Shown here in pieces: positions 1,415-30,269 of a DNA stretch of 39,797 nucleotides. A program made the position numbers and the translations under genes. The stretch is from a virus: positions 1 to 39,797 of IMG/VR virus record IMGVR_UViG_3300042914_002066. One strand, written 5' to 3'. Under the pieces are notes generated by a model. The model made no database searches. It was not told where the DNA came from and worked only from the letters and a program-made list of their open reading frames with translations. Each line of letters begins with the position of its first letter. Position 1 is the stretch's first letter.

Positions 1415-1444
1415 GTCATTCTCCTAGGGCGCCTACAGGCGGGG

Positions 1445-2583: not shown

Positions 2584-2591
2584 AATCTCTC

Positions 2592-3641
2592 CTAGGTAAA
2601 CACCCGAAGGGCGAGGATGTTCTGGTCATCGTCTGCTGCGGAGCCCGCCCCAGCAGCCCCCTGGGGGCCTGTGGCACCTTGGGGTCCCGCTGCTCCCTGC
2701 GGGCCCGTGGCACCTGCCGAACCCGCCACTCCTTGGGGGCCCGCCGTCCCCTGGGGGCCCGCCGTCCCCTGGGGGCCAGTCGGCCCAGCACTCCCATTGG
2801 CGCCCTGGGGGCCTGTGGCCCCCGTGTCACCAGTCGGTCCCTCGATGCCGACGGCAACAGCACTCCAGTACGAGAGGTTGATAAATCCACCGTCGATGGG
2901 TGGTTCGTTGGTGGAGCCCGCAACCGCCACGAACGAAGCGAACCCAAGAACTGTGGGTCCGCCGAGGTCGAGCACGGCTGAGTAGGTCACGATGTCGCCT
3001 ATGACATACGTGGTGCTGGAATCCCAATCCCCCAGGAACGAGTTGTAGAAGTCCCCCGTTGGTCCCGTCGGACCCGTGGGGCCAGCCGCCCCAGCACCAG
3101 TGGCTCCCTGCGGTCCCGTAGGTCCCTGGGGTCCCGCAACCGTTGATGCAGCGCCTGTTGCACCCGTGGGGCCCGTGGGGCCCGTGGGGCCTTGTGGGCC
3201 CACGGCGCCTTGGGGACCCGCAACCGTTGATGCTGCCCCCGTCGATCCTTGCGGTCCCGTGGCGCCCTGCGGACCAGTCGCACCTTGGGGACCGATTGCA
3301 CCTTGCGGGCCCGCAACCGTCGAGGCGTCCCCCGTGGGGCCAGCAGCCCCTTGGGGGCCTGTCGCCCCTTGCGGACCTGTGGCCCCTTGCGGCCCAGCGA
3401 CTGTAGAGGCAGCCCCTGTCGGACCAGCACTGCCCTGTGGGCCAGTGGCCCCCTGGGGGCCCGTTGGCCCCGTGTTGCCCTGGAGGCCCGCATACCCCAG
3501 GTCGGACCACACATCGACGCCGTTCCCGAACTTCAGTTCACCTGTGTCTGTTTCCAGCCCAACTTCGCCCTGGGCGAGAATCGGGTCGGCGGAGGTCCAT
3601 TCCGCCGCCGTCCCTCGACGCAACTGAATACGAACAGCCAT
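2592..3641 (-). CDS. Collagen-like tail fibre, 349 aa
   Basis: Residues 1-50 ([35 protein letters not shown]) match the N-terminal attachment module seen in major tropism determinant-type fibres. A Gly-X-Y collagen run, rich in GPQG and GPTG, covers about residues 54-196 and is broken four times by ASTVA (78, 106, 137 and 164). Residues 197-268 form a globular domain ([16 protein letters not shown]) resembling a small carbohydrate-binding module. A second collagen block runs to about 335, followed by a short tail. The protein is probably a trimeric host-binding fibre. The low-complexity DNA creates long false frames on the opposite strand. Confidence 0.85.
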
Positions 3642-3820
3642 CAGGCGCCACCTCCGTCGATGTCGGTGAACGACCCGTACTCCGAGAAGGGGAATCCGCC
3701 ATCGAGGTTGGCGAGCACTCCGCCTTCGGCGGCTGCGCGCATTACCTCACGGAAGTTTTCGTTCAGCTTGCTAGGCGCCATCTGATCCAGGCGAGTGAAC
3801 GTGTGAGTGACCTGCTCCAT
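3641..3820 (-). CDS. Small structural-operon protein, 59 aa
   Basis: This frame is missed by a 60-codon cutoff. It reads [20 protein letters not shown] and ends FTDIDGGGA. It fills the gap between the 591-aa gene and the fibre exactly: ATG at 3820 overlaps the upstream TGA, and its own TGA overlaps the fibre ATG (TGATG at both ends). That perfect coupling is the main support. It has no membrane segment or known domain. It may be a tail-assembly or fibre-linker protein. Confidence 0.75.
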
Positions 3821-7869: not shown

Positions 7870-7888
7870 TTTGGTTCCTCTCTAGGTC

Positions 7889-7909
7889 GAAGTGGGTAGT
7901 TGGCTACCC
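7889..7909 (-). promoter_or_regulatory. Hairpin leader of the capsid gene
   Basis: On the minus strand GGGTAG-CCAA-CTACCC forms a 6-bp stem and is followed by ACTTCG. The GGG...CCC plus ACTTC layout resembles the other late leaders but differs in sequence. It lies 20-40 bases before the capsid GTG and overlaps the end of the scaffold gene. Confidence 0.5.
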
Positions 7910-14307: not shown

Positions 14308-14450
14308 TCTCCCCTCGATTCGCCCTCGAGCGACGCTCGCACCCATGGCGGCGATCCCCTCCCCTCGAGCGCCGCTTGCCCCCCTCGAGTACGCCACCCC
14401 CCGATCCCCTCCCCTCGAGCGACGACCGCCCCCAGGACGACCGCCCCCAG
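14308..14450. repeat. CTCGAG-containing direct repeats (iteron-like)
   Basis: CGATCCCCTCCCCTCGAGCG occurs at 14352-14371 and again at 14402-14421, 50 bases apart. Related CCCTCGAG copies lie near 14328 and 14392, and GACGACCGCCCCCAG is tandemly repeated at about 14421-14450. The array could bind an initiator or a regulator. Confidence 0.6.
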
Positions 14451-14515
14451 GGCGACGGGCTCGGGCCTCGGTGCCAGGTCACTGGCGGGCTCGGTCGCCA
14501 CCCCCCTAGCGGGTA

Positions 14516-14545
14516 TTGACAGGGAGCGGCTGGCGGGATTACTCT
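14516..14545 (+). promoter_or_regulatory. Sigma70-type early promoter
   Basis: TTGACA (14516-14521) is an exact -35 consensus; TACTCT (14540-14545) fits the TAnnnT -10 pattern with an 18-base spacer. It lies 53 bases before the first early gene and reads into the plus-strand block. Confidence 0.65.
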
Positions 14546-14597
14546 TCGGGGCGGGTGGGCAGAGCGCCCGCCCGAGCCAACACGAAAGGGAACGAAC

Positions 14598-14996
14598 ATG
14601 CCAGAGACAGAGACGGTGACAGCGGACACGGTGCGGCGGCGGGTGCTCGACATTCTCGCCGAGCGTCCCAACGTGCGGAACCCCCGAGCGGGCTCGGGCT
14701 GCGCCTACGTGGCGGACCCGTTTAGCGGATGGGGGGACGGCAGACCCCACGCCCCCCGCTGCGTGGTCGGTGAGTATTTGGTTCGCTTCGAGGGGTGGAC
14801 CGATGCTGATTTCGCCGCATCGGAGAACGAGACAGCTAGGACGCTGATCGGGGATGACCTGCCCGCCGACGTGGTGGCGGTGCTGCAAAGCGCCCAGGAG
14901 GGCGCCGACGGCACGGCGACGTGGTCGCTCGGTGAACTGCCGCCCCTGTGGGATGAGGTCCGCTGGTCACTGCGCGAGCGTTGGGGGATGGCGTGA
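14598..14996 (+). CDS. First early gene, unknown protein, 132 aa
   Basis: MPETETVTADTVRRRVLDIL opens a 132-aa acidic protein with CAYVADPFSGWGDG, HAPRCVVGEYLV and a helical C-terminus (ELPPLWDEVRWSLRERWGMA). It has no membrane segment or known catalytic motif. The ATG follows AGCCAAC...GAAAGGGAACGAAC, the early leader type, and the strong promoter at 14516. Being first in the early block, it is a candidate host-takeover protein (inference). Confidence 0.72.
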   Translation: MPETETVTADTVRRRVLDILAERPNVRNPRAGSGCAYVADPFSGWGDGRPHAPRCVVGEYLVRFEGWTDADFAASENETARTLIGDDLPADVVAVLQSAQEGADGTATWSLGELPPLWDEVRWSLRERWGMA

Positions 14997-15121
14997 GGCG
15001 GGCACGGCGGGCCCCGCTGCTCGATCTGTCGCCACGTGAGGCGCTGGCGGTGATCTTCGGGGCGGGGTGGATCTCGGCTTGTCTCGTGCTGTGGGTGCTC
15101 ATGCACCTTGTCGCTCTGTAG
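14993..15121 (+). CDS. Small single-pass membrane protein, 42 aa
   Basis: The frame starts at GTG overlapping the previous stop (GTGA). The N-terminus is basic (MRRARRAPLLDLSPREALAV), followed by one hydrophobic segment (IFGAGWISACLVLWVLMHLV), giving an N-in, single-pass topology. It is one of three tiny membrane-type genes in the early block. The function is unknown. Confidence 0.6.
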   Translation: MRRARRAPLLDLSPREALAVIFGAGWISACLVLWVLMHLVAL

Positions 15122-15137
15122 TGGGGCGGTGACGGGG

Positions 15138-15206
15138 GCGGCGCCGGCCACGGTCGGCGCCGCTCACGATGTCGCCCGACATCATCAAGCCAACGGAAGG
15201 AACTAG
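15138..15206 (+). promoter_or_regulatory. Structured early leader, copy 1
   Basis: A perfect 9-bp hairpin (GCGGCGCCG/CGGCGCCGC, 15138-15163) is followed by AGCCAAC (15188-15194) and GGAAGGAACTAG (15195-15206), which holds the ribosome binding site of the gene at 15211. The layout recurs at 15863 and 17225. Confidence 0.65.
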
Positions 15207-15210
15207 AGCG

Positions 15211-15597
15211 ATGCCTACAACGAATCAAAGCGAACTCATCCGCACGGCCAAGCGGTGCCAGGGCGTAGCGGTGGCGTCGTCGTGGCGGGCCGAGTACGTC
15301 CCCGCCACCGACGAGCACCCCGAGCACGTCGAGGTGTGGCACTACTCGACCCCGATGCTGGCGGTAACGGTAGACGGGTCCGATCTGGTGCTCCCCATCT
15401 CCAAGGGGCGGGAATCCATCACGGATAAATGCGGCGTGCGGAAGATCCTCCAGGGGTACGGGTTCCCGCTCGGTTATTGGGACGTTTACGGCGGGGGGTG
15501 CAAGGCGCCGAACACGCTCGGCGGGTTCTCTGCCCCGACCTATGCCCGCACGTGGGCCGATGCAGTGTCGGCGTGGCCATCGGCGGTGGCGTCGTGA
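15211..15597 (+). CDS. Unknown early protein, 128 aa
   Basis: MPTTNQSELIRTAKRCQGVA leads to a compact, aromatic-rich globular sequence (WRAEYVPATDE, VWHYSTPMLAVTVDGSDLVL, GFPLGYWDVYGGGCKAPNTL). The start at 15211 rather than 15169 is set by GGAAGGA in the leader. No family is recognised and there is no membrane segment. It is coupled to the next gene by GTGA. Confidence 0.7.
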   Translation: MPTTNQSELIRTAKRCQGVAVASSWRAEYVPATDEHPEHVEVWHYSTPMLAVTVDGSDLVLPISKGRESITDKCGVRKILQGYGFPLGYWDVYGGGCKAPNTLGGFSAPTYARTWADAVSAWPSAVAS

Positions 15598-15854
15598 TCG
15601 CCCCCGCAGAGGCTGACCGCAAAGCGGAAGCAGTGAGGCGGCTACAGGAGCGATGCGGCGAACTCGTCGAGCGGTACGGGCCCGCCCAGCGTCGGCTAGG
15701 TGACACACCGACCGACACACCGACCGACACGCCAGGAACCCGTCACCCCGCCACGGAGGAATGCGACGGGACGCCTACGGGGCCCAGGTGCGTCGAGTGC
15801 GGGCAGCGGCTTTGTCCCTGCGAGTACGGGTACGGCCACGACTGCGAGGGGTGA
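15594..15854 (+). CDS. Cys-rich protein with DTPT repeats, 86 aa
   Basis: The frame begins at GTG (15594) overlapping the upstream TGA. A charged helix (DRKAEAVRRLQERCGELVER) precedes the repeat DTPTDTPTDTPG and a C-terminal cysteine cluster (CVECGQRLCPCEYGYGHDC) that probably binds zinc. Upstream in-frame codons from 15429 overlap the preceding gene too far to belong to it. The function is unknown; such knuckles often bind nucleic acid. Confidence 0.6.
   Translation: MIAPAEADRKAEAVRRLQERCGELVERYGPAQRRLGDTPTDTPTDTPGTRHPATEECDGTPTGPRCVECGQRLCPCEYGYGHDCEG
15702..15731. repeat. 12-bp tandem repeat in coding sequence
   Basis: GACACACCGACC is repeated directly at 15702-15713 and 15714-15725, and then partly again. 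It encodes the TPTD repeat of the 86-aa protein and could change length by slippage. Confidence 0.75.
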
Positions 15855-15862
15855 CAGCGGGG

Positions 15863-15930
15863 GCGGCGTCGGCCACGGTCGGCGCCGCTCACGGTGCTAC
15901 TCGGCGCCAATGACCAACGGAAGGAACTAG
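15863..15930 (+). promoter_or_regulatory. Structured early leader, copy 2
   Basis: Hairpin GCGGCGTCG/CGGCGCCGC (15863-15888) differs from copy 1 by a C-to-T change that keeps pairing as G-U. It is followed by CCAAC and GGAAGGAACTAG (15919-15930), then AGCG and the ATG at 15935. Confidence 0.65.
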
Positions 15931-15934
15931 AGCG

Positions 15935-16558
15935 ATGGCTACAACGTGGATGACCCAGGAAGAAACAGCACGCCCGAAGGCGGCGCCCGAGCCGTGGCGC
16001 CAGGGCGCCAGGGCATTGGCGAGGCGGTTCGGGACAACGGGGCTGCGGGCCGTGCAGGACCCCGAGAACCCCGAGCGGTGGGCGGTGACCGATTCCTACG
16101 GGCTGCGGTTCTTCGGGCCCGACACCATCGAGGGGCAGGCGCTGACGGCGTACCACGAGGCGGAACCGATCCGTGAGCCAGGGCGGCTAGTCGTGTGGGT
16201 ATGGCGAAGCGGCACCAACGTCATGGCCCCCGACACTGCCAGGGCGATGGGGTGGGATTCAGTCGCCAGAATCGTCGCCCAGGTGGAAGCCCCGCACGAT
16301 CACGACACGGGCGTACCGATCACGCCTGTGCAGGCGGTCGGCATTGACTACACGGCGGACACCTCGAAGGACCCCCTTGTGCAGGCGCTCGACGCTGACG
16401 GGCAGCGGCTGGCGTTGTTTCGGCGGTCGCTGCTCGGTGGCCTGCTCGATCCAACCGAGACGCTATGGATCGCTACCCCGCTGAAGCCCGCAGCGGTTCG
16501 CAACGCTGACGGGGAGCTTCTCGGAATCATCATGCCGATACGGGACAGCAACCTGTAG
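15935..16558 (+). CDS. Unknown early protein, 207 aa
   Basis: MATTWMTQEETARPKAAPEP begins a mixed alpha/beta protein with RWAVTDSYGLRFFGPDTIEG, GRLVVWVWRSGTNVMAPDTA and LGIIMPIRDSNL at the end. No catalytic motif or membrane segment was found. The stop codon TAG lies inside a copy of the motif CTGTAGCCGC. It is a monocistronic-looking gene with its own leader and downstream hairpin. Confidence 0.7.
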   Translation: MATTWMTQEETARPKAAPEPWRQGARALARRFGTTGLRAVQDPENPERWAVTDSYGLRFFGPDTIEGQALTAYHEAEPIREPGRLVVWVWRSGTNVMAPDTARAMGWDSVARIVAQVEAPHDHDTGVPITPVQAVGIDYTADTSKDPLVQALDADGQRLALFRRSLLGGLLDPTETLWIATPLKPAAVRNADGELLGIIMPIRDSNL

Positions 16559-16602
16559 CCGCAGGTTGGTAGCGGGTACCCCCCGGGCTTAGGCCCGGGG
16601 GG
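16550..16602 (+). terminator. Two stacked hairpins after the 207-aa gene
   Basis: AACCTG-TAGCCG-CAGGTT overlaps the stop codon. Then CCCCCCGGGC and GCCCGGGGGG (16579-16602) form a perfect 10-bp stem with loop TTAG. No T-run follows. The pair probably ends or protects the transcript before the next early leader. Confidence 0.6.
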
Positions 16603-16628
16603 CTCTCGGTGCCAATGGGGCGCCATCA

Positions 16629-16649
16629 AGCCAACACGGAAGGAACTAG
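16629..16649 (+). promoter_or_regulatory. Early leader box, copy 3
   Basis: AGCCAAC (16629-16635) and GGAAGGAACTAG (16638-16649) lie just before ATG at 16654. Here the upstream hairpin is the 10-bp GC stem at 16579-16602. Confidence 0.65.
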
Positions 16650-16653
16650 GAAC

Positions 16654-17208
16654 ATGGGAACACGAAGCATCATCGCAGAGCCAGACGGCCACCAGGGGTG
16701 GCGGGGGCGGTATTGCCATTGGGATGGCTACCCCCAGGGCGTTGGGGTGAACCTGCTCGCCATTGTGCAGCGGGACGGGATCGAACAGGCCCGCCGAATC
16801 CTGCTCCACGATTTCTACGGGTGGTCGGGCATCAACCGTGCGCAGCCGAACATCGAGGGCGTGGAACCCGACAGGGATGCCGAATGGGGAAGCCCTGCCT
16901 ACGTGGCGCACCAGTTCGGGCCCGATGGCACCCACGGCGGCGGGCGTTGGGTGAACGTCCCAGGGTACGGGGAGGCGTACAACCCCCTGCCAGGGGTCCC
17001 CGAGAACGACACGGTGTTCCGCGAGTTCCAGCGGGACGAGTGGCTGATCGAGGATCACCTCGCCGCTACGTGGTGCGAGTGGCTTTACATCATGGAGGAC
17101 GATCACCTCAAAGTCGCTTGCATTGTTCCCGACCCTCGCCCGCTGCGGTGGTTTGGGAGTTTCGATTACGACGACGTGAACGAGGCGATCCGTCTCGCCA
17201 AGGTTTGA
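16654..17208 (+). CDS. Conserved phage protein of the GTRS...HWDGYP type, 184 aa
   Basis: The opening MGTRSIIAEPDGHQGWRGRY followed by CHWDGYPQGVGVNLLAIV is a recurrent pattern in uncharacterised phage and actinobacterial proteins, recalled here without a family name. The protein is cytosolic, acidic and aromatic-rich, with WCEWLYIMEDDHLKV and a C-terminal helix (DVNEAIRLAKV). The ATG at 16654 was chosen over the one at 16609 because the leader ribosome binding site precedes it. The molecular function is unknown. Confidence 0.72.
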   Translation: MGTRSIIAEPDGHQGWRGRYCHWDGYPQGVGVNLLAIVQRDGIEQARRILLHDFYGWSGINRAQPNIEGVEPDRDAEWGSPAYVAHQFGPDGTHGGGRWVNVPGYGEAYNPLPGVPENDTVFREFQRDEWLIEDHLAATWCEWLYIMEDDHLKVACIVPDPRPLRWFGSFDYDDVNEAIRLAKV

Positions 17209-17224
17209 GCGGGTAGCGACGGGG

Positions 17225-17299
17225 GCGGCATCGGGCCTACGGGCTCGGTGCCGCTCACGATGCGACTCTGCATCATCAGCCAACAACGGAAGGAACGAA
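17225..17299 (+). promoter_or_regulatory. Structured early leader, copy 4
   Basis: A 13-bp stem (17225-17237 with 17242-17254, loop TACG, two G-U pairs) is followed by AGCCAAC (17278-17284) and GGAAGGAACGAAC before ATG at 17302. The stem begins GCGGC/GCCGC like copies 1 and 2 but extends further, with base changes on both arms. Confidence 0.65.
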
Positions 17300-17301
17300 C
17301 A

Positions 17302-17865
17302 ATGAAGGAAGAAACACGGAGCGAGCTCGCTCACACCTTGGCGGTGCGGCTCGACCTCAATGGCCAGGAAGCCGAGATCGTGCACGGCGGTTACCGCTGG
17401 CGGGTTGCGTTGCGATCCGACGAGTGGTGTGACGTGGTGGACGAGATCAACGGGGTGGACTGCTGGGGCAAGGTGGCTCGGGTGGAAGTGGAGCACCACA
17501 CGGGCTACCCCAAGCCTCGACCCGATGGGTTCGATGGGCTGGCCGAGAAGATCAACGACCCCAGGGGTGGGGCGTGGTGGTGGCAGCCGACGCTCGATGT
17601 GTGGGGCATTTCCCCGCAGCGGTGGCGGGAGGATGCGGGCCTGCGGCGCATGTCACGGCAGGGGGTGGCGGACCTGCTGGAGTATGGGTTCTACCTGCTG
17701 ACGGTGGAGCGGTATGTGCTTGAGTGTCCCGCCTGCAAGTGTGACCGCCATGTGAGCGACTGGACCATCGGGGGCATCGAGCCGTTTCCCGAGGCCAGTT
17801 ACTTGGCGGACATCATCGAGGAAGCCATTTCGGAGTGCGAGGCCCAGGGGGAGGTGGCGGCATGA
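17302..17865 (+). CDS. Unknown early protein with CxxC, 187 aa
   Basis: MKEETRSELAHTLAVRLDLN starts a Trp-rich protein (WWWQPTLDVWGISPQRWRED) with a helical region (RRMSRQGVADLLEYGFYLL) and a single CPACKCD zinc-type turn near residue 145. The ATG at 17302 follows the leader ribosome binding site. It overlaps the next gene by ATGA. No family is recognised. Confidence 0.68.
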   Translation: MKEETRSELAHTLAVRLDLNGQEAEIVHGGYRWRVALRSDEWCDVVDEINGVDCWGKVARVEVEHHTGYPKPRPDGFDGLAEKINDPRGGAWWWQPTLDVWGISPQRWREDAGLRRMSRQGVADLLEYGFYLLTVERYVLECPACKCDRHVSDWTIGGIEPFPEASYLADIIEEAISECEAQGEVAA

Positions 17866-18374
17866 GCGTGTTCAGGGGTTACGGAGAACAGGGCATGGCG
17901 AATCTCAGGGCCTTGCAGAGCATTCTCGGAAACGCTGACGGCACTCTTGCCGAGTGGCGCGACCGTTTCCCCGAGGATGCGGAGGAAGCCGAACACCTAG
18001 CATCAAGCATCGGCTTTGACATCCCCAACACCGATGATGCCTGCTGGCAGGCGTCGGAGGAGTTGGCGCTGGTGGCTTACGACGTGCAGGGGTTTGAGGC
18101 GTTTAGTGACTGGTTGGATCCCGATAGGGGTTTGGCCCAGGTTGCCAACGCGCATGGGTTCGTTTCGTCTCACATGACCGTCGGCGTAGGTGACCTACTG
18201 GCATTGGATGACGAGCGTTGGCTCGACCTTGTGGCGGAATACTTGGTGGGCGAGGACTGCGGCATCGTCGTGTCCGAGGTTGATTACGAGGCGGTCGGGG
18301 TGCTTTCCGATGGCAGCGTGGTTGTCCAGGTGAGCGGCAACGTCGCGGCGCTACTGGCGGAGGTAATGGCATGA
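17862..18374 (+). CDS. Unknown acidic early protein, 170 aa
   Basis: MSVFRGYGEQGMANLRALQS begins a very acidic protein (EWRDRFPEDAEEAEHLASS, WLDLVAEYLVGEDCGIVV) of mostly helical pattern. Its acidity would fit a DNA-mimic or inhibitor, but nothing specific supports that. It is coupled to both neighbours by ATGA overlaps. Confidence 0.65.
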   Translation: MSVFRGYGEQGMANLRALQSILGNADGTLAEWRDRFPEDAEEAEHLASSIGFDIPNTDDACWQASEELALVAYDVQGFEAFSDWLDPDRGLAQVANAHGFVSSHMTVGVGDLLALDDERWLDLVAEYLVGEDCGIVVSEVDYEAVGVLSDGSVVVQVSGNVAALLAEVMA

Positions 18375-18481
18375 GCGGGGCGGTGGGCAGCGTGCTCGGG
18401 ACCCTGCTTGTAGTCGCCACCATGTTGGTGGGTGCTAGGGACCTGCGTAGCGTGATGCGTCATGGTCGAGCTTCCCGCTGA
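18371..18481 (+). CDS. Tiny membrane protein, 36 aa
   Basis: MSGAVGSVLGTLLVVATMLV forms one short hydrophobic segment followed by a basic tail (RDLRSVMRHGRASR), giving an N-out, C-in topology by the positive-inside rule. The start is by ATGA overlap with the previous gene, and the next gene begins inside it. It is too short for family assignment. Confidence 0.5.
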   Translation: MSGAVGSVLGTLLVVATMLVGARDLRSVMRHGRASR

Positions 18482-18722
18482 CGGCGAGATCCCAGGGGTC
18501 CGCTTCTCCCAGGGTTTGGGTCGCATCCACCTTTGGTGGCTGGATCGTCCTTGGTGGAATCCGTTCGGCGTCATCAAGCAACAGCCTGATGGGCGTTGGG
18601 GCTACGTGCCATTCGGTCTAGATAGCGCCGATTTGGTGCGGGAGCCCATCGCCCAGGGTCGGACCATCCTCGATGCAGCACGCAGAGGCATGGCCGCAGA
18701 AAGCAAACTCAACCGCAGATAA
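18462..18722 (+). CDS. Unknown small protein, 86 aa
   Basis: MVELPADGEIPGVRFSQGLG is followed by an aromatic core (IHLWWLDRPWWNPFGVIKQQ) and a helical basic C-terminus (TILDAARRGMAAESKLNRR). It overlaps the 36-aa gene by 20 bases in another frame. It ends the first early operon and is followed immediately by a strong hairpin. The function is unknown. Confidence 0.6.
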   Translation: MVELPADGEIPGVRFSQGLGRIHLWWLDRPWWNPFGVIKQQPDGRWGYVPFGLDSADLVREPIAQGRTILDAARRGMAAESKLNRR

Positions 18723-18723
18723 A

Positions 18724-18755
18724 CGAATGGCCGGGGCGTAAGCCCCGGCCATTCG
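18724..18755 (+). terminator. 14-bp hairpin with GTAA loop
   Basis: CGAATGGCCGGGGC and GCCCCGGCCATTCG pair perfectly around GTAA (a GNRA-type loop), beginning two bases after the stop codon of the 86-aa gene. No U-tract follows, but its stability and position make it a transcript-end structure. Confidence 0.65.
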
Positions 18756-18757
18756 CC

Positions 18758-18778
18758 AGCCAACAGCGGGGAACTAGG
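18758..18778 (+). promoter_or_regulatory. Orphan early leader box
   Basis: AGCCAAC and GGGGAACTAGG occur as in other early leaders, but no start codon or frame follows; a terminator does. It looks like the remnant of a deleted gene cassette. Confidence 0.55.
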
Positions 18779-18799
18779 CCGCTGCTTCACCAGCACCTT

Positions 18800-18826
18800 A
18801 TCGCCACCTTTGGGGGTGGCGATTTC
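18800..18826 (+). terminator. Rho-independent terminator
   Basis: ATCGCCACC and GGTGGCGAT form a perfect 9-bp stem around TTTGGG and run into TTTC. It insulates the first early operon from the DUF932 gene. Confidence 0.65.
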
Positions 18827-18845
18827 ACGTTATGCGCTAGTGGGG

Positions 18846-18873
18846 TGGACAGACGCTAGACATCGTGTAGGCT
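18846..18873 (+). promoter_or_regulatory. Candidate promoter of the DUF932 gene
   Basis: TGGACA (18846-18851) and TAGGCT (18868-18873) are spaced by 16 bases, close to sigma70 spacing, 47 bases before ATG 18921. It lies just after a terminator, which favours a new transcript start here. Confidence 0.45.
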
Positions 18874-18920
18874 CCAGGGGTCGGCAACAGGGCCGATAAG
18901 CCAACCGAGAGGAACTAGCA

Positions 18921-19943
18921 ATGGCACACGAACTGGAAACGATCAACGGGCGGACCTCGTTCGCCTACAACAAGGCGGAGAACCCTTGGCACAAACTCGG
19001 CACCCCGATGGAGGGGTTGCAGACGGCGGCCACGATGCTCGAAGCCGCCCAGGCTGACTACGTGGTGGGGACAGCCCCCCTGTACACCATGACCGAGCAT
19101 GGCATGGTCGAGATCGAGAGCCATAAGGCGACGGTGCGCACGATGGGCGACGACGACCCGAGAGGCATGGAGCACCAGGTGCTCGGCGTGGTCGGTAGCG
19201 GCTACGAAGTGGTGCAGAACGCCCAGGCGCTCGACCTTGCATTGCAGATCGTCGGGGCCGATCCCGACGCTGATGCGGTGGTGGACACGTGCGGGGTCAT
19301 GTTCGAGGGCAAGCGGTTCTTTGCCTACATTGACCTAGGCACCCTCGAACTCGACCCGACGGGTGTGGCGGACAAGCTCACTCGGGGGCTCGGGGTACTG
19401 ACCAGCCACGACGGCACCCAGGCGGTCACCTTCGCCATGTCGAACGTCCGATGGGTGTGCAACAACACGGTCACCGCTGGGTTGCAGCGGGCACAGTCCA
19501 CTTTTCGTGCTCGTCACACGCAGAACGTACAGATCAGTATGGCCGAGGCTCGGCACGTGCTCGGGGTGTCGGCACGGTGGTCCGAACAGTTTGCACGGCA
19601 GGCCGAGCTCCTGCTGTCGCTCCAGGACGGCGGCACCAGCGGTGCGGCTCACGACTTGCTGACCAAGTTGGAGGCCGAGCTGTGGCCGCATCGCCAGGAC
19701 ACGACGGTACGGGCGGACAACAACGCCGAGCGCCGTCGGGCCCACCTGCATCGCCTGCTCGATTCCTCGACCTGCATCCCCGCAGTGGGGGCCAACGGGT
19801 GGGCGGTGTACAACGCTGTAACCGAATACCTCGACCACGGGCGCAGCACCCTCTCGGCGCAGCGTCGGGCCGAGGCGGCAGTGGTGGGCACGTCCGATGC
19901 GCAGAAGGTGAAGGCGGCACAGTGGCTACTCGCCAAGGTGTGA
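18921..19943 (+). CDS. DUF932 phage/plasmid-like protein, 340 aa
   Basis: The start MAHELETINGRTSFAYNKAE with NPWHKLGTPM, the central LGVVGSGYEVVQNAQALDLA and MSNVRWVCNNTVTAGL are hallmarks of the DUF932 (TIGR03299) family, large proteins common on phages and plasmids. The molecular role is not established. The C-terminal part contains a conserved-looking YNAVTEYLDH and ends AAQWLLAKV. The length is normal. It carries its own early leader (AGCCAAC, AGAGGAACTAG), candidate promoter and UUCG-loop terminator, so it is probably a separately controlled, abundant early product. Confidence 0.85.
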   Translation: MAHELETINGRTSFAYNKAENPWHKLGTPMEGLQTAATMLEAAQADYVVGTAPLYTMTEHGMVEIESHKATVRTMGDDDPRGMEHQVLGVVGSGYEVVQNAQALDLALQIVGADPDADAVVDTCGVMFEGKRFFAYIDLGTLELDPTGVADKLTRGLGVLTSHDGTQAVTFAMSNVRWVCNNTVTAGLQRAQSTFRARHTQNVQISMAEARHVLGVSARWSEQFARQAELLLSLQDGGTSGAAHDLLTKLEAELWPHRQDTTVRADNNAERRRAHLHRLLDSSTCIPAVGANGWAVYNAVTEYLDHGRSTLSAQRRAEAAVVGTSDAQKVKAAQWLLAKV

Positions 19944-19961
19944 CAGTCCTGTAGTCGCAGC

Positions 19962-19989
19962 ATGGGCGGGGCTTCGGCCCCGCCCATTT
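19962..19989 (+). terminator. Terminator with TTCG tetraloop
   Basis: ATGGGCGGGGC and GCCCCGCCCAT pair perfectly (11 bp) around TTCG, followed by TTTG. It closes the DUF932 transcript. Confidence 0.75.
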
Positions 19990-20014
19990 GCGTTACGCAG
20001 TTTGGTTCTAGGTT
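19988..20014 (+). promoter_or_regulatory. Weak candidate promoter before HTH gene
   Basis: TTGCGT and TAGGTT are 15 bases apart, which is short, and lie 20 bases before the HTH gene start. Support comes mainly from position directly after the terminator. Confidence 0.3.
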
Positions 20015-20034
20015 ATGTGGCGGAGGAAAGAACG

Positions 20035-20310
20035 ATGGGATTACCAGCAGACCTACGCGAGACGTGGGCCAACAACTTGGCTCGATGGGTAGAAGAAGTC
20101 GAGCCGACCGACGACGTGGTGCTGCATGAGGCAGCCGTTGCCAACAACTGCTCGGAAGCGTCAGCGTTGCTGATGGAGCTCGTCGAGATCATGGCGAAGC
20201 GTCGAGCGGCGGCGGTGCGGATGCTCGACGGCCAAGGGTTGAGCCGAGCACAGATAGCCGTGGCCCTGAACATGAGCCGCCAGCGGGTGCAGCAGATCCT
20301 GAACCGCTGA
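20035..20310 (+). CDS. Small HTH DNA-binding protein, 91 aa
   Basis: An acidic N-terminal helix region (MGLPADLRETWANNLARWVE) is followed by RRAAAVRMLDGQGLSRAQIA and VALNMSRQRVQQILNR, a helix-turn-helix like sigma factor region 4 or Trp-repressor-type domains (AQIAVALNMSRQRVQQIL). The ATG at 20035 has GGAGG 8 bases upstream. It lies directly before the attachment site and integrase, so it could regulate integration or lysogeny. No excisionase or CI-type repressor is otherwise recognised. Confidence 0.7.
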   Translation: MGLPADLRETWANNLARWVEEVEPTDDVVLHEAAVANNCSEASALLMELVEIMAKRRAAAVRMLDGQGLSRAQIAVALNMSRQRVQQILNR

Positions 20311-20348
20311 CGGTACGTGTTCGTGGTATCTTGTGAGCGGCAAGTCGC

Positions 20349-20428
20349 CTGACCCTACGGGTCTGGCGGGGCAAGCGAAGCGCCGCCAGGTCGTGGGTTC
20401 AAATCCCGCCAGCCCGACCCTGGGTCAG
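20349..20428. other. Probable attP: tRNA 3' end flanked by inverted repeats
   Basis: GTGGG-TTCAAAT-CCCGC (20393-20409) is a perfect tRNA T-arm, followed by CAGCCCGA and CC, an acceptor 3' strand and near-CCA end. No matching 5' half exists, so this is a tRNA fragment, not a gene. It lies just before the integrase. Flanking repeats are CTGACCC (20349-20355) with GGGTCAG (20422-20428), GACCCTACGGGTC (20351-20363), GACCCTGGGTC (20416-20426) and CTGGCGG/CCGCCAG. The bacterial target is probably a tRNA gene ending CAGCCCGACCA. Confidence 0.75.
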
Positions 20429-20465
20429 ATGGCTTGCCATTCCATTGCAAATACGCAGGAAAGGG

Positions 20466-21401
20466 ATGGAAGCCATGACGACACTCAACAGTGTTGGTAT
20501 TAGTTCAGAATCACGTTCCGACCTTACGGTGGCCGAGGCGGTGGGGCGATGGCTCCACCACGCCGAGCACCGAAGGGGGCGGCAACCCTCGACGATGACC
20601 TCCTACGTGTCCACCATGCGGGCGTTCTTGCCCTGGGTTGGGCACGTGGACATCAGTGCGGTGAACCGCCTGGAGCTCGAAGCGTTTATTGACCGACCCC
20701 ACGAGCGGGTCAGCCGTGCGAAGCCCGCCACGGTGAAGCGTGAAGTGTCTACGCTGCGGGCGTTCTTTCAGTGGGCCGAGGATGAGGGGCTGGTCGAGCG
20801 GAGCCCTGCCAGGGGGATGCACGCTCCGACGGTGCACAACATCCAACCCAAGCCGATCCCCGACGAGGTGTGGCAGGCGTGGTGGTTCCACGACATGCCC
20901 GACAGTCTCAGGGTTGCCCTGGGGCTCGGGTTCTTTGCGGGGCTCCGTCGAGCGGAGATCACGTCGCTCACGACGTACCAGGTGACCGAGGACGCCGTTG
21001 TGGACGTGAAGCGGAAGGGTGGCAGTACCCACACGGTGCCGTGGCGAGACATGGTGCGGGTGCTGGAGCGCACCCACAACCATCTTGTCGGGGCCCAGGA
21101 GTTGCTGTGGCCTGCGGTGAGGCGGCTACAGGAGGGGCGTGGGGGGCATCGGCTGCTGCTGTGGGCCTCGCCCGTGCCCGCCGAGATGAACAAGCGCCTG
21201 GAGCGTTGGGGGAGGCAGAACGACCTCACCAGGTTCACCCCGCACCAGCTCCGTCACTCGACGGCGACGAACCTGCTGCGTGCGGGCACGCCGTTGCACC
21301 TTGTCAGTGCACTACTGAACCACTCGAACCCAGCGATCACCATGAGGTACGTTGCGGCAGGAGCGTCACAACTAGCGGAACATTTGAGGATGCAGGGGTA
21401 G
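20466..21401 (+). CDS. int: Tyrosine integrase, 311 aa
   Basis: This is a site-specific recombinase that would insert the phage at a tRNA gene. The N-terminal core-binding domain covers about residues 20-120 (LTVAEAVGRWL, STMTSYVSTMRAFLPWVG). The catalytic set is complete: GLRRAEI (R161), VKRKGG (K184), HQLRH (H260, R263), NHSNP (H286) and the nucleophile in TMRYVAAG (Y295). The length is at the short end for phage integrases; a separate arm-binding domain is not obvious. ATG at 20466 has AGGA five bases upstream; ATG at 20475 is an alternative. The attP-like tRNA end is 40 bases upstream. Confidence 0.93.
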   Translation: MEAMTTLNSVGISSESRSDLTVAEAVGRWLHHAEHRRGRQPSTMTSYVSTMRAFLPWVGHVDISAVNRLELEAFIDRPHERVSRAKPATVKREVSTLRAFFQWAEDEGLVERSPARGMHAPTVHNIQPKPIPDEVWQAWWFHDMPDSLRVALGLGFFAGLRRAEITSLTTYQVTEDAVVDVKRKGGSTHTVPWRDMVRVLERTHNHLVGAQELLWPAVRRLQEGRGGHRLLLWASPVPAEMNKRLERWGRQNDLTRFTPHQLRHSTATNLLRAGTPLHLVSALLNHSNPAITMRYVAAGASQLAEHLRMQG

Positions 21402-21405
21402 GGTC

Positions 21406-21675
21406 GTGAACATGTACAACGACATCAACGACGAGACTCGCGCTCTCATCGCCAAGATGTACGAAGCGGGTGAGCGGATCTCGGAGATCACGCGCGAGAC
21501 AGGGCTCAGTCGGCCCACCATTTATTGGGTGCTGCGGACCAAAGGGGTCCGCCCACAACGCAACGTGCGGGAGGACGAGCTGTCCGCCAGTGACCTGGCG
21601 GAGATGCTTCGGCAGTCCGAGCGTGAAGTGGGGCGGCTACAGGAACGCCTGCGCCAAATCAAAGAAGGCGAATAG
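21406..21675 (+). CDS. HTH regulator with coiled-coil tail, 89 aa
   Basis: NDETRALIAKMYEAGERISE and ITRETGLSRPTIYWVLRTKG form a helix-turn-helix like those of resolvases and transposases (Hin-type). A helical tail follows (DLAEMLRQSEREVGRLQERL), suited to dimerisation. GTG at 21406 with AGGGG upstream is preferred; ATG at 21412 is possible. It lies between the integrase and a promoter bearing repeated AACGAAGTGTC, so it may bind those repeats (inference). It could act as excisionase or lysogeny regulator. Confidence 0.72.
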   Translation: MNMYNDINDETRALIAKMYEAGERISEITRETGLSRPTIYWVLRTKGVRPQRNVREDELSASDLAEMLRQSEREVGRLQERLRQIKEGE

Positions 21676-21679
21676 TCAC

Positions 21680-21733
21680 TTACGAAACGAAGTGTCACTT
21701 TTTATAATGACACGAGTGTAACGAAGTGTCCCC
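21680..21733 (+). promoter_or_regulatory. Promoter with TATAAT and repeated operators
   Basis: TATAAT (21703-21708) is an exact -10 box; the -35 region (TTACGA, 21680-21685, 17-base spacer) is weak, suggesting activator dependence. AACGAAGTGTC occurs twice (21686-21696 and 21720-21730), one before and one after the -10 box, and GTGTCA/TGACAC forms a dyad across it. The arrangement is that of a regulated early promoter. Confidence 0.65.
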
Positions 21734-21839
21734 TCCTTGCTTGCTGTAGCCGCAGCATTGCAAGGAAACCGGCTCGGCCCGCTTGGGGCGAGCCGAGCCT
21801 TCCCAGCCAACAGTGGAACTCACGACGAAAGAGGAACTA

Positions 21840-22466
21840 GTGCACGACGAACTTGCAGACGTGGATCTGCGCGGCAAAGAACTGGTGTCCGACGATCCGA
21901 GCACGTGGATCGTTCCCCCAGGCATGGCGCAACACGATTCCGTCCTCGACTGGTGGAAGCGACTCATCAAGGTGGAAACAGGTCTACACCCCGAGGTTGT
22001 CCATGCATGTCAAGGGGCGGTAGCGGCTTGGGCTACACAGCGGGGTTGGTACAAGGAACGCACCATCGGTTTCGTGAACACGCTCCTTAGCCACGGGTTC
22101 ACCATGAAGCAGGTCGAGGATGCCACTTCGATCCCGATGCGGGAGCTTTTCGGCCCGACCCTGTGGTCCCGATGGGAACGCATCCAGGCAGGCGATCCGC
22201 TGGAGGATGCAATCGAGGGCATCTCGACGCACTGGCAGAAGCACGTCAAGTTGTGGGACAACATTCGCCAGGGCATACCCAAGCAGGCCAACTACGCACG
22301 ACGCAACCCGAAGATGAAGCAGGCCGCCCTCGATCTGTGGGACCAGGGCGTTGACCGTCGGACGATCTGCGTGCGACTCAAAGAGATGTTCGGGGAGGAC
22401 ATTCGACCCGACACGGTGAGCCAGTGGGTGCTCCGCCGCAAGCAGAAACTCCAGAAGGCTTCGTGA
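21840..22466 (+). CDS. DNA-binding protein with C-terminal HTH, 208 aa
   Basis: The start is GTG at 21840, placed by AGAGGAACTA; the frame is open further up. The protein has an acidic N-terminus, a Trp-rich helical region (SVLDWWKRLIKVETGLHPEV), a possible first HTH (FTMKQVEDATSIPMRELFG) and a second at the C-terminus (DQGVDRRTICVRLKEMFGED, then TVSQWVLRRKQKL). It is the first gene behind the TATAAT promoter, so it may be a replication-initiation or regulatory protein of the replication operon. The family is not recognised. Confidence 0.68.
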   Translation: MHDELADVDLRGKELVSDDPSTWIVPPGMAQHDSVLDWWKRLIKVETGLHPEVVHACQGAVAAWATQRGWYKERTIGFVNTLLSHGFTMKQVEDATSIPMRELFGPTLWSRWERIQAGDPLEDAIEGISTHWQKHVKLWDNIRQGIPKQANYARRNPKMKQAALDLWDQGVDRRTICVRLKEMFGEDIRPDTVSQWVLRRKQKLQKAS

Positions 22467-22552
22467 TGGCGTTCGAGATTCTGTACTTCGCCTCGTTCTT
22501 GGTCGCCGCCACGTTCTTCGTGCTGTGGGGCCTGTGGAGTATCTACGAATGA
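22466..22552 (+). CDS. Tiny membrane peptide, 28 aa
   Basis: MAFEILYFASFLVAATFFVL continues with WGLWSIYE: one transmembrane helix and little else. The start overlaps the upstream stop (TGATG) and its stop overlaps the next start (ATGA). The coupling on both sides argues for a real gene. The function is unknown. Confidence 0.5.
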   Translation: MAFEILYFASFLVAATFFVLWGLWSIYE

Positions 22553-22782
22553 CCCCCGCAGAACGCTACCGCTACATCCTTCGGCGCATTGCGGACCCGA
22601 TGCACGATGTCATGGGCGACCTAACGCAGTTCCTGCGGTGGGACGACCAGCCGCTGCCGAAGTCCGACGCACTTGTCCTGGAGGCGGCCCGTGAGGTGTT
22701 GCAGGACGTGACCGCCTATCTCACCAAGTGGTTGAACATGCGCGCCATCGAGATCGAAGCCGAGGGGCACAAACGTGACTGA
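22549..22782 (+). CDS. Unknown helical protein, 77 aa
   Basis: MTPAERYRYILRRIADPMHD starts a mainly helical protein with LEAAREVLQDVTAYLTKWL and a charged end. ATG at 22549 overlaps the tiny peptide's stop (ATGA), and its end overlaps the nuclease start. It is likely a small partner in the recombination operon; no motif is recognised. Confidence 0.6.
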   Translation: MTPAERYRYILRRIADPMHDVMGDLTQFLRWDDQPLPKSDALVLEAAREVLQDVTAYLTKWLNMRAIEIEAEGHKRD

Positions 22783-23548
22783 ACGACGCAACCACGACTT
22801 TCGCCAGTCCGACCTGAACACGTGGATGATGTGCCCCGAGCAGTTTCGGCTGAACCGTGCGGGCGAGCTCCCCAGGCACGAATCGGACGCCACCGCCGTG
22901 GGAACCGCTGTGCATCACGGCATTGAGGGCGTGCTCAGTGGACAGTGCTCACTCGACGAGGGCCACGACCTGGCCGCCGAGAAGTTCACCGAGCTCTTGC
23001 CCACCATTGAGCGGTGGAACAAGGCCGACGAGCGCACCTGCTACGTGCACGTCTCCAACTGCTACACGACGTGGGCAGACCAGGTGTACCCCATGCTCCC
23101 CGCCGCCGTGCTCGTCGAGGAATCGTTTCGGGTCCTGCTGCATGAGGACGAGCACCGCACCATCCACCTCACGGGAACCGTGGACATGCTCGACGAGCTG
23201 GGGTGCGTTTGGGACTGGAAGAACATGGGCGCCGAGATTCAGAAGTGGGAAGCCGACCGATTCAAGATTCAGCCGACGGCGTACACGTATGCGGCCCGTC
23301 ATGCCTGGGGCGTCGAGGAACCCGAGTTCGCCTATGCGGTCATGCTCAAACGTGCCAAGCCTGTAGACGCACAGATCCTGTACGTGCAACGCACCGAGCA
23401 GCATTGGGAGTGGTTGAAGCGCCAAGCCGTCAGCTTGGCGGTTCAGATCGAAGCGCAGCTTCCCGTGTGGCAGCTACGGGACCAGGGGTGGCATTGCAGC
23501 GCCAAGTGGTGCGGTGCCTGGGACTCATGCAAAGGGGCCCACCTGTGA
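22775..23548 (+). CDS. PD-(D/E)XK nuclease with Fe-S cluster (Cas4/RecB-like), 257 aa
   Basis: This is probably an exonuclease acting in replication-linked recombination. Nuclease motifs are visible: GTAVHHGIEG (H47), LTGTVDMLD (D137) and WDWKN (D147, K149). Cys20 (MMCPEQF) together with Cys241, Cys246 and Cys252 (CSAKWCGAWDSC) gives the four-cysteine pattern of the iron-sulfur cluster in Cas4/AddB-type nucleases. The length is typical. GTG at 22775 is coupled to the upstream gene. The neighbouring ssDNA-binding candidate, helicase and RusA support a replication and recombination role rather than CRISPR adaptation; no CRISPR array is present. Confidence 0.85.
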   Translation: MTERRNHDFRQSDLNTWMMCPEQFRLNRAGELPRHESDATAVGTAVHHGIEGVLSGQCSLDEGHDLAAEKFTELLPTIERWNKADERTCYVHVSNCYTTWADQVYPMLPAAVLVEESFRVLLHEDEHRTIHLTGTVDMLDELGCVWDWKNMGAEIQKWEADRFKIQPTAYTYAARHAWGVEEPEFAYAVMLKRAKPVDAQILYVQRTEQHWEWLKRQAVSLAVQIEAQLPVWQLRDQGWHCSAKWCGAWDSCKGAHL

Positions 23549-23778
23549 TCCCCGACAAGGAGGGCATGTTGATAGCAGCGATCAACGACGCTATTGACCA
23601 CGCAGCGTGGCTGTTCGAGCTCGGGGACGTTCCCGATGACGCCGAGGACGAGTTCCGTGACCTGGTGTACGAGGAGCGGTATCACTGCGGGACGTGCATG
23701 GTGCGAACCGTCATGGAAGTGGTGTGGCCACCCATCGAGGACCTCATCGAGTACGCAACCCGCCGACAAACCCCTTGA
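23545..23778 (+). CDS. Small acidic protein with CxxC, 77 aa
   Basis: The frame starts at GTG 23545 (GTGA overlap with the nuclease stop). It is acidic and helical (NDAIDHAAWLFELGDVPDDA) with one HCGTC motif and a Trp-Pro turn (VWPPIEDLIEYATRR). The frame is open far upstream inside the nuclease gene, but only the coupled start is credible. The function is unknown. Confidence 0.55.
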   Translation: MIPDKEGMLIAAINDAIDHAAWLFELGDVPDDAEDEFRDLVYEERYHCGTCMVRTVMEVVWPPIEDLIEYATRRQTP

Positions 23779-23780
23779 CG

Positions 23781-23801
23781 ACAACCCCCCTGTGGGGTTG
23801 T
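23781..23801 (+). terminator. 8-bp hairpin after the CxxC gene
   Basis: ACAACCCC and GGGGTTGT pair around CCTGT, starting two bases after the stop codon. TTGACG directly precedes it, but no well-spaced -10 box is found. It may attenuate transcription into the next gene. Confidence 0.45.
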
Positions 23802-23866
23802 ATGACAAACCGAATGTTGCATCAGTACCATCCCATTATTACCAGCCAACAAGGAGGCACAGCCAA

Positions 23867-24409
23867 ATGACAGCAGCACTAGGGACTGTTGAATACTCAC
23901 GAACCGTCAAGGTGCGTGACTACGAATCAGCCAAGGCGACCGTCGCCATTCAGTTCGAGATCCCCGCCATGAACGGCGACAGCGCCGCCCACGGCCAGAC
24001 GATCCTCGCTGCGGCACAGACCGCCATGTTCCAGGCCAAGACCCTGGTGTTCGACGAGCTCGGCATCGAGTTCAACGTGGACGAGGGTGGCGTGATCCGT
24101 GAAGCGATCCGCTCGACCTTCGGCCAGGTCACCGAAGTTTCAGCCCCTGCAACCCCGATGCCCGTGACGGCCCCGCCCGCTGCCATTGCGGCAACCAGCA
24201 CCCCAATGGGCAGTGCCACCCCGCCGTTCGACGCCCGCACCCAGGAGGCCGAGCAGAAGCGTGCGAACGCCAAGTGGGCCAAGGATCGGTTCGCCACGAA
24301 CCCTGACGAGTTCTACGACAACCGTGACAAGAAGGCCAGCGGCGAGTACTCGCCCAAGTCCCCTGACTTCAAGCACAAGGACAGTGGCATTGGAGTGTGG
24401 CTCTCCTAG
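23867..24409 (+). CDS. Candidate ssDNA-binding/recombination protein, 180 aa
   Basis: The N-terminal half is beta-rich (ALGTVEYSRTVKVRDYESAK, VAIQFEIPAMNG). A Pro/Ala-rich linker (residues 92-122) leads to a basic, conserved-looking tail containing DRFATNPDEFYDNRDKKASG and PDFKHKDSGIGVWLS. Tails of the form DNR...K...PDFKHK...G...WL recur in phage replication proteins thought to bind ssDNA (recalled, not searched). ATG at 23867 has AAGGAGG nine bases upstream and an AGCCAAC leader. The place between nuclease and helicase supports the role. Confidence 0.6.
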   Translation: MTAALGTVEYSRTVKVRDYESAKATVAIQFEIPAMNGDSAAHGQTILAAAQTAMFQAKTLVFDELGIEFNVDEGGVIREAIRSTFGQVTEVSAPATPMPVTAPPAAIAATSTPMGSATPPFDARTQEAEQKRANAKWAKDRFATNPDEFYDNRDKKASGEYSPKSPDFKHKDSGIGVWLS

Positions 24410-24426
24410 AGCCCACCGTTCTGGGT

Positions 24427-24459
24427 CCCCCCGTCGTACCCCCTTCCTGCGACGGGGGG
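24427..24459 (+). terminator. 10-bp GC hairpin before the helicase gene
   Basis: CCCCCCGTCG and CGACGGGGGG pair perfectly around 13 bases, 17 bases after the upstream stop codon. No T-run follows directly. It probably sets different mRNA levels for the two neighbours. Confidence 0.55.
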
Positions 24460-24494
24460 GCCTACCCCCCTTCTCTCCCCCTACGGAGTCCCCC

Positions 24495-25481
24495 GTGACC
24501 GAAGTGCTTTCCGTCGAGGAACTGCGCGCCCGCATTGCCGAACGGCAGAACATGGAGCAGTCCGCATCCGCCCAGCGTTTGCGGTACGTGCGACCTCTTG
24601 CCGACGCAGCCGAGGCCCTGATCGACGTGTTTCAGAACCCCGAGGGCCGATTCATGTTCGGCCTCCCCCCACTCGACGTGATGTTGCGTGGAGTAGGCAA
24701 GGGCGAGATGTGTCTAGTGGTGGGTCGAGCCCACTCGGGCAAGTCCGCCATCGCCCTTCAAGCCGTCGCCAACAACCCCCAGGCCCGTGTCCTGTGGTTT
24801 CAGTGGGACGAGTCAGCCCTGCTACTTCTCGCCAAGTTGGTTGCCGTGGTGAGCAACACCAACGGCGAGCTCTTGGAGCAGCGGGTCCGCTCGGGCGACC
24901 CCGAGGCGGTCGCCACCATCCGCCAGCTTGCTGGCCAGACCTTCCGCAACCTGGTGGTCATTGACGAACCGCTGGGCCTAGAGGACATGAGTGCCGCCCT
25001 GATCGAAGCCCAGGACTGGTGGGGCGCCGAGGCCGATGCCGTCATCCTCGACTTCATTGAGTTGCTCCCAGGCGAGCAGGACGCCACAGGTGTAGACGCA
25101 AAGATCAAAGGGTTGAAACGGTGGGGCAAGCAGCACAACGTGCCGTTGGTTTGCATCCACCAGGCGAATCGGAGTTCGGGTCACCGTGGGAAGGCCATCG
25201 GCATGGACGCCGCCAAGTTCGGCGGCGATGCCGAGGCCACCCAACTGCTCGGCGTGTTCCGCAAGCGTGACGATCCCGACCTGGAGCCCGCCGAGTACGA
25301 ACTCGTCAAGGACCTGCTGCAAGTTGCCGTGTCCAAGAACAAGCGGCCCCCGTCCCGACGTGGCACGGTGGACTTCCACCTCGACCCCGACACGGGACGC
25401 ATCACCCCCCTCGACGACCTGCACCCCGCACCCGTCGAACCGCCAATGGAGTCAACGTGGTGGGAGCAACAGAACTTCTAG
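24495..25481 (+). CDS. DnaB-like/RecA-fold replicative helicase, 328 aa
   Basis: This ATPase of the DnaB C-terminal (RecA-fold) type would unwind phage DNA. It has Walker A GRAHSGKS (residues 77-84), Walker B AVILDF (D186) and a sensor-like IHQANRS (H222, Q223). The DnaB N-terminal primase-interaction domain is replaced by a short helical leader (about 50 aa), so it is shorter than cellular DnaB (about 450 aa). GTG 24495 follows ACGGAG. It overlaps the primase gene by 25 bases, suggesting linked synthesis of helicase and primase. Confidence 0.85.
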   Translation: MTEVLSVEELRARIAERQNMEQSASAQRLRYVRPLADAAEALIDVFQNPEGRFMFGLPPLDVMLRGVGKGEMCLVVGRAHSGKSAIALQAVANNPQARVLWFQWDESALLLLAKLVAVVSNTNGELLEQRVRSGDPEAVATIRQLAGQTFRNLVVIDEPLGLEDMSAALIEAQDWWGAEADAVILDFIELLPGEQDATGVDAKIKGLKRWGKQHNVPLVCIHQANRSSGHRGKAIGMDAAKFGGDAEATQLLGVFRKRDDPDLEPAEYELVKDLLQVAVSKNKRPPSRRGTVDFHLDPDTGRITPLDDLHPAPVEPPMESTWWEQQNF

Positions 25482-29958: not shown

Positions 29959-30269
29959 TGCTGCGCCTTCATGGCGTCCACCGCATGGCGGATCTCGTGG
30001 TCATGGACCCACTGGCGGATGGACTCGACGCCGTTCACGACGTGCTCAGTGCGCTCGTCGATGCGGCCCACATGGCCCAACAAGCCCTTCACGTCCTCGT
30101 GGAGTTCCCCGACCAACGCACGCCCCTCGGCGTGCTGGTCGCTGTTCTCCTGCTGCAACTGCCGTAGACGCAACTCGTGGTTGTGCTGTTTGCGCAGCAC
30201 AACCATCGGTCCCACAATGGCCGATACTGCGGCTACAGCCAGGGGGATCAGCACTGCCAGGTCGATCAT
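29946..30269 (-). CDS. Membrane-anchored coiled-coil protein, 107 aa
   Basis: One N-terminal membrane helix (IDLAVLIPLAVAAVSAIVGPMV) is followed by a long charged coiled coil (NHELRLRQLQQENSDQHAEG to the end). The topology resembles small lysis-accessory or spanin-like proteins. It lies between the giant virion gene and the endolysin, so it is probably part of the lysis cassette. ATG overlaps the stop of the giant gene (ATGA). Confidence 0.75.
   Translation of the reverse strand: MIDLAVLIPLAVAAVSAIVGPMVVLRKQHNHELRLRQLQQENSDQHAEGRALVGELHEDVKGLLGHVGRIDERTEHVVNGVESIRQWVHDHEIRHAVDAMKAQQRDT

Follow-up and report, generated by a model that had tools for sequence, protein, structure and literature searches.

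Results

We analyzed a viral DNA of 39,797 bases (GC 62%), the entire IMG/VR virus record IMGVR_UViG_3300042914_002066 and hereafter the window, in which a short repeated leader, AGCCAAC followed by a Shine-Dalgarno box, stands just before the start codons of several early genes. End repeats are absent, and positions 39797 and 1 are contiguous in the close relative L127; the genome is therefore circular or circularly permuted. The minus strand carries the late genes (terminase, portal, major capsid protein and tail fibre), and the plus strand carries the early genes from 14598 onward (DUF932, integrase, helix-turn-helix (HTH) proteins, exonuclease, DnaB helicase, primase and RusA). The public record MW202803 (MW202803.1, locus L176 here), described as a podovirus, is syntenic with the window. 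Next to the integrase gene, a 31-base sequence (20389-20419) equals the tRNA 3' end of many actinobacteria, including freshwater Acidimicrobiia; it is the probable attP core, and ARAGORN found no complete tRNA there. Because of this match, the host is probably an actinobacterium, and probably a freshwater one.

Gene starts were assigned by hand from open reading frames, with the leaders used in part as help. AGCCAAC lies at 14575, 15188, 16629, 17278, 18899, 21805 and 23844, in agreement with an initial annotation that had reported AGCCAAC or CCAAC before at least eight plus-strand genes; at gene 15935 a leader is present but reads GACCAAC. The window holds 23 copies of AGCCAAC, compared with 6.0 ± 2.3 in shuffled sequences, and 0 of 100 shuffles reached 23. 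CCAAC begins at -20 to -23 from the start codon in seven early genes and at -33 for gene 21840. Behind it stands GGAAGGAAC or GAGAGGAAC, then TAG. The second box of the initial annotation is thus a Shine-Dalgarno box, which occurs exactly as GGAAGGAACTAG three times and otherwise as GGAAGGAACGAA, GAGAGGAACTAG, AAGAGGAACTAG and AAGGGAACGAA, and is reduced to AAGGAGGCAC only before gene 23867. Its AAGGA or GAGG core complements the anti-Shine-Dalgarno sequence CACCTCCTTTCT of a candidate host (L376) at 5-10 nucleotides (nt) from the start, as in a ribosome-binding site. The leader segments are A-rich and T-poor (40% A, 7% T) and open, with a mean unpaired fraction of 0.58 compared with 0.40 and 0.39 at other starts.

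The initial annotation had described a leader of the early genes in general and late genes free of it. The leader is indeed an early one, but it is limited to plus-strand genes behind an intergenic gap: it precedes 8 of 11 gap genes and none of the 15 early genes packed head to tail (Fisher p = 1e-4). It tracks cassette boundaries, not all early genes. In the relative L126 (5708-6628), a gene resembling cytosine DNA methyltransferases is inserted between two packed early genes, at the place of window position 23546, and has no leader. The late genes mostly lack the leader; the exception is the major capsid gene (7869), where a partial copy on the minus strand (7870-7905) has AGCCAAC, CCAAC at -34 and GAGAGGAACCAAA before a GTG. 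Among the late genes of the window, AGCCAAC occurs only there.

Class-specific control by a phage protein or a host RNA had been suggested from these leaders; we recovered the early leader class but not the dedicated regulator. One explanation of the repeat is a common on-off switch of the early class, operated by a factor that recognizes AGCCAAC in DNA or RNA, either a small RNA or a protein of phage or host origin. The conservation of AGCCAAC extends past the bases that pair with the anti-Shine-Dalgarno sequence, with a fixed spacing and a single orientation before early genes; the phage encodes HTH proteins, and a like suggestion has been made for the Start-Associated Sequences considered below. 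However, the 7-mer has no inverted symmetry, and the late capsid gene carries it too. Nor did the proposed complementarity to host 16S rRNA hold up: GTTGGC is absent from the 16S of the candidate host, and CCAAC is not enriched before the genes of that genome, although this host was picked by its tRNA match alone, which makes both host-based tests weak. Pairing of CCAAC with a GUUGG near the 16S 3' end was also considered and rejected as topologically wrong, as the paired CCAAC would need a place downstream of the Shine-Dalgarno box. We regard a dedicated regulator as quite unlikely.

Before genes 15211, 15935, 16654 and 17302, and at five places in the relative L125, the leader forms the 3' end of a unit of 80-90 nt. 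Hairpin A, of 13 pairs, comes first and hairpin B, of 6 pairs, second; a short spacer then leads to CCAAC, which is followed by the Shine-Dalgarno box and the start codon. We aligned these nine copies, four from the window and five from L125, and built a covariance model (R1) from them. All four window modules lie on the plus strand. The module before 15211 (15134-15210) has hairpin A at 15136-15165, hairpin B at 15168-15183 and the leader AGCCAACGGAAGGAACTAGAGCG (94.2 bits with R1), and the one before 15935 (15859-15934) ends in GACCAACGGAAGGAACTAGAGCG (89.1 bits). Before 16654 (16574-16653), hairpin A pairs CCCCCCGGGC with GCCCGGGGGG, hairpin B pairs GGTGCC with GGCGCC, and the leader is AGCCAACACGGAAGGAACTAGGAAC (88.9 bits), while the module before 17302 (17221-17301) ends in AGCCAACAACGGAAGGAACGAACA (81.9 bits; fold z -4.7).

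In the nine copies, 95.3% of the cells of hairpins A and B are paired, and pairing falls to 37-55% when the partner strand is slid. Both sides have changed in 8 pairs, and there are 24 double-change cells compared with 7.3 in shuffles, a count that comes from about five independent modules. G-U pairs are retained in both hairpins, and the element therefore fits an RNA structure rather than a DNA palindrome. Relative to shuffled sequence, the mean fold z upstream of leader genes is -2.7, compared with -0.35 and -0.45 at other starts. A search of the early block against known RNA families (Rfam) gave only chance-level matches.

The other leaders also lie on the plus strand. AGCCAAC ACGAAAGGGAACGAAC before gene 14598 (14575-14597) lies behind a hairpin at about 14552-14574, and AGCCAACCGAGAGGAACTAGCA before the DUF932 gene 18921 (18899-18920) lies behind a hairpin GTCGGC/GCCGAT. 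At 21771-21839, a 12-bp GC hairpin is followed by the leader of gene 21840, which has its CCAAC at -33 and then AAGAGGAACTA in front of the GTG start. Gene 23867 has AGCCAACAAGGAGGCACAGCCAA before it (23844-23866). A ninth, orphan copy (18729-18777, with the copy itself at 18758-18777) consists of a GC hairpin GGCCGGGGCGTAAGCCCCGGCC and then AGCCAACAGCGGGGAACTAG, scores 21.9 bits with R1 and has no start codon behind it.

Another explanation is that each leader opens a separate transcription unit: hairpin A would end transcription of the gene before it, and a promoter close to the leader would start the next message, as in the promoter-bearing extended element (ESAS) of cluster K phages. By eye, TTGACA, TTGACG or TGGACA with TA...T boxes can be seen upstream of 14598, 18921 and 23867, among them TTGACA-N18-TACTCT at 14516 and TTGACG-N17-TTGTAT at 23775 (both on the plus strand, upstream of 14598 and 23867, respectively), and the early block holds 15 terminator-like sites compared with 5.6 expected by chance. 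A consensus scan, however, returned one sigma-70-like site in 10 kb, which is the chance level. None of the hairpins in the four modules has a T run, and before 15211 the two hairpins and the leader take up nearly all of the gap of about 88 nt, so that a promoter would hardly fit. Separate transcription units at every leader are therefore an unlikely explanation.

We then compared the window with two syntenic but more distant genomes of lower GC, G001 (49%) and G002, whose helicases are about 45% and capsid proteins about 71% identical to those of the window. Model R1 found the module once at high score in each (51.6 bits, E 2e-13), directly before a start codon and with the leader CCCAATAACGAAAGGACCAGTAAC; weaker matches lie before the DUF932 gene in G002, the helicase gene in G001 and another gap gene in both. 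The AACGAAAGG-type box occurs seven times in G001 and six times in G002; each copy directly precedes a start codon on the early strand, and the late block has none, as proposed for the window. Leader letters drift among relatives (CCCAATAAC, CATTAAC, ACTAAC) and the architecture stays. From the module and the AACGAAAGG boxes, we infer that conservation of the early leader class concerns its design and not its drifting sequence; such free change of sequence also speaks against a regulator that reads AGCCAAC. Microbacterium phage Appa, which has the DUF932 gene in common, shows no such leader class by eye. A loose IMG/VR pattern scan (AGCCAAC within 12 nt of GGAACTAG) gave single, apparently chance matches, and among the matches listed only L072, the contig of L125, had several.

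Further early leaders in G001 and G002, as well as one in MW202803, consist of a complete type II hammerhead ribozyme that passes at its 3' end directly into the AACGAAAGG ribosome-binding site. Rfam model RF02276 scored 37.2 and 38.9 bits in G001 and G002 (cut-off 37), and two further G001 copies fell below the cut-off at 34.3 and 28.8 bits. A strict descriptor of the hammerhead core and three stems, scanned over the 4.07 Mb of fetched DNA, gave 16 matches, several of which are one copy in overlapping loci and two of which (L230 and L231) look false; the reversed sequence gave none. It was this descriptor that found the MW202803 hammerhead. In four of the five copies checked, a pseudoknot of 4-6 bp joins loop I to the tail that follows stem II (TAGCC/GGCTA, TGGCT/AGCCA, TAGCCT/AGGCTA); MW202803 has none.

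Scanning IMG/VR with a pattern of the hammerhead 3' end plus GAAAGG, we obtained 42 stretches, most of them with complete ribozymes, and 18 copies in the scanned loci exceeded the RF02276 cut-off. Behind every one of the 58 distinct hammerhead copies come a Shine-Dalgarno box and a start codon, the latter 27-42 nt downstream of the first core base. Of the 58, 25 lie outside the search pattern, yet nearly all of these are in contigs chosen by that pattern. L432 (about 1080-3960) and L436 (1661-5364) each contain an array of eight hammerheads between small genes, each fused to the ribosome-binding site of its small gene. The last hammerhead of L436 lies directly before a DUF932 gene, the family also found behind the window leader at 18899. 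The window terminase was not found in eight hammerhead-array contigs, some of which are fragments, and those phages are therefore related to the window at most in early genes. In the relatives of the window, the hammerheads should cut themselves.

In MW202803.1, the hammerhead (1946-2033) is unannotated and the annotated start at 1985 falls inside it; the true start is likely the in-frame ATG at 2030 behind AACGAAAGG. In the same record, many starts of early and late genes, on both strands, have a recurring palindrome nearby, GTTTCY-NNN-RGAAAC, which may be an operator or a hairpin.

The window itself has no RF02276 or other Rfam hammerhead up to E 5 in 14400-24600, none at gathering score over its whole length, and no descriptor match. 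Its modules were rejected as hammerheads, as they lack the core (GAAA, a UH cleavage site and CUGANGA with stems I-III). The two-hairpin module might nevertheless cut RNA in another way, as a new self-cleaving RNA or a host-ribonuclease site that replaces the hammerheads, and AGCCAAC would then be what is left of the 3' pseudoknot arm of the earlier hammerhead, comparable to the hammerhead leaders AAGCCAAC...GAAAGG (L424), GGCCAACGAAAGG (L414) and AGCCAAAACGAAAGGG (L416). A pseudoknot partner for AGCCAAC was sought in the window: six complementary bases were found only at 16654 and at most four elsewhere, which is not consistent. We consider this version improbable.

Cassette exchange at the leader is directly visible in L125. 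This relative has about 940 extra bases, which hold a two-gene cassette together with a leader and a terminator-like hairpin; the junction falls at the leader and the first codons of the gene homologous to 14598. Recent duplication of cassettes could have left the repeat as a side effect, and its function would then hardly exceed ordinary ribosome binding. Besides this gain or loss, the sequences starting at 15133, 15858 and 17218 are repeats of about 80-90 nt that are 77-85% identical, and L125 re-uses one identical hairpin of 42 bp. Nevertheless, hairpin sequences diverge while pairing is kept, the same design recurs in relatives as distant as G001 and G002, and the genes downstream of leaders show no family match linking one to another. 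Duplication as the whole explanation is very unlikely.

Two further features of the window were recorded. A single open frame of 2,972 codons extends over 30266-39184 on the minus strand, and its C-terminal part is conserved in relatives. An AT-rich segment at 21676-21740, downstream of an HTH gene, contains repeats of AAGTGTCAC and GTGTCATT and is a possible regulator site.

Discussion

We hold it modestly probable that the repeat is the end part, serving translation initiation, of a modular 5' leader with which every separable early cassette opens. Hairpins and hammerheads in equivalent slots suggest a function at the RNA level, in processing or insulation combined with ribosome binding, rather than a DNA site for a transcription factor. 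Intercistronic RNA structure would separate the cassettes, and an open ribosome-binding site would stand at the head of each. Neighbouring early messages would be kept apart by self-cleavage in the relatives. In the window, we infer, simple folding or a ribonuclease of the host would do so, and the hairpin pair may serve as a ribonuclease site, as insulation or as a weak terminator. Each small gene would then be translated from its own open site, and cassettes could be gained or lost without disturbance to their neighbours. AGCCAAC would act as an unstructured linker that connects the folded part to the ribosome-binding site, and not as an operator for a protein.

Several observations weigh against this interpretation. 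Four of the five L125 rows are near-copies of window rows, and the covariation counts do not represent many independent events. The leaders of 14598, 18921 and 23867 have no upstream fold better than chance, and two or three of them may lie behind promoters of their own. The hairpins could act as weak terminators, and the orphan copy at 18758 has no gene. RNA processing at the leaders is deduced from sequence, and with no hammerhead in the window, the processing role is carried over from relatives by analogy.

Early blocks of small phage genes are mosaic, yet each gene needs immediate expression in a new host. If our interpretation is true, a standard leader with a separating RNA structure explains how unrelated cassettes can be plugged in and out. 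The junction of hammerhead and ribosome-binding site offers a concrete role, open to direct test, for the hammerheads of phages, a purpose for which has yet to be proven.

Like ordinary strong Shine-Dalgarno leaders of actinobacterial phages, the window leaders are A-rich and open and have an AAGGA or GAAAGG box. They differ in adding CCAAC at a fixed distance and upstream hairpins, and in being absent from packed early genes and, with one partial exception, from late genes.

Type II hammerheads flank single prophage genes, and the proposal has been made that they divide long phage transcripts into messages of gene length (Perreault et al. 2011, PMC3088659; Rfam RF02276); the pseudoknot between loop I and tail was described in the same work (PMC3088659). 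As in those prophages, a structured, repeated element lies between small phage genes here, and in G001, G002 and MW202803 the hammerhead occupies the place before early genes that the two-hairpin module has in the window. The window differs in lacking both the hammerhead core and a consistent pseudoknot partner for AGCCAAC. In the literature searched, we found no description of a ribozyme end fused to a ribosome-binding site, which is not proof of absence.

Together with the prophage hammerheads, the closest known parallel is offered by the Start-Associated Sequences of cluster K phages, short repeated sequences with a Shine-Dalgarno core a few nt before starts (2011, PMC3203893). These occur at non-structural genes only, mostly in gaps of more than 50 bp and in one orientation, have an inverted repeat upstream of about half of the copies, and are conserved beyond 16S pairing (PMC3203893). 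The window leaders show the same restriction to gap genes and non-structural genes (8 of 11 versus 0 of 15, with one partial late exception). In sequence they differ: Start-Associated Sequences follow the 13-bp GGGATAGGAGCCC with at most two deviations, 3-8 bp before the start, whereas the window leaders read CCAAC...GGAAC or CCAAC...GGAAGGAACTAG. For the inverted repeats of cluster K, RNA pairing is unsupported, and SigA-like putative promoters lie inside them (PMC11373665). The window repeats differ from that extended element, a 17-bp imperfect inverted repeat with promoter hexamers, in being of another sequence, covarying as RNA and showing no promoter excess. The window leaders thus work like Start-Associated Sequences but are not members of that family.

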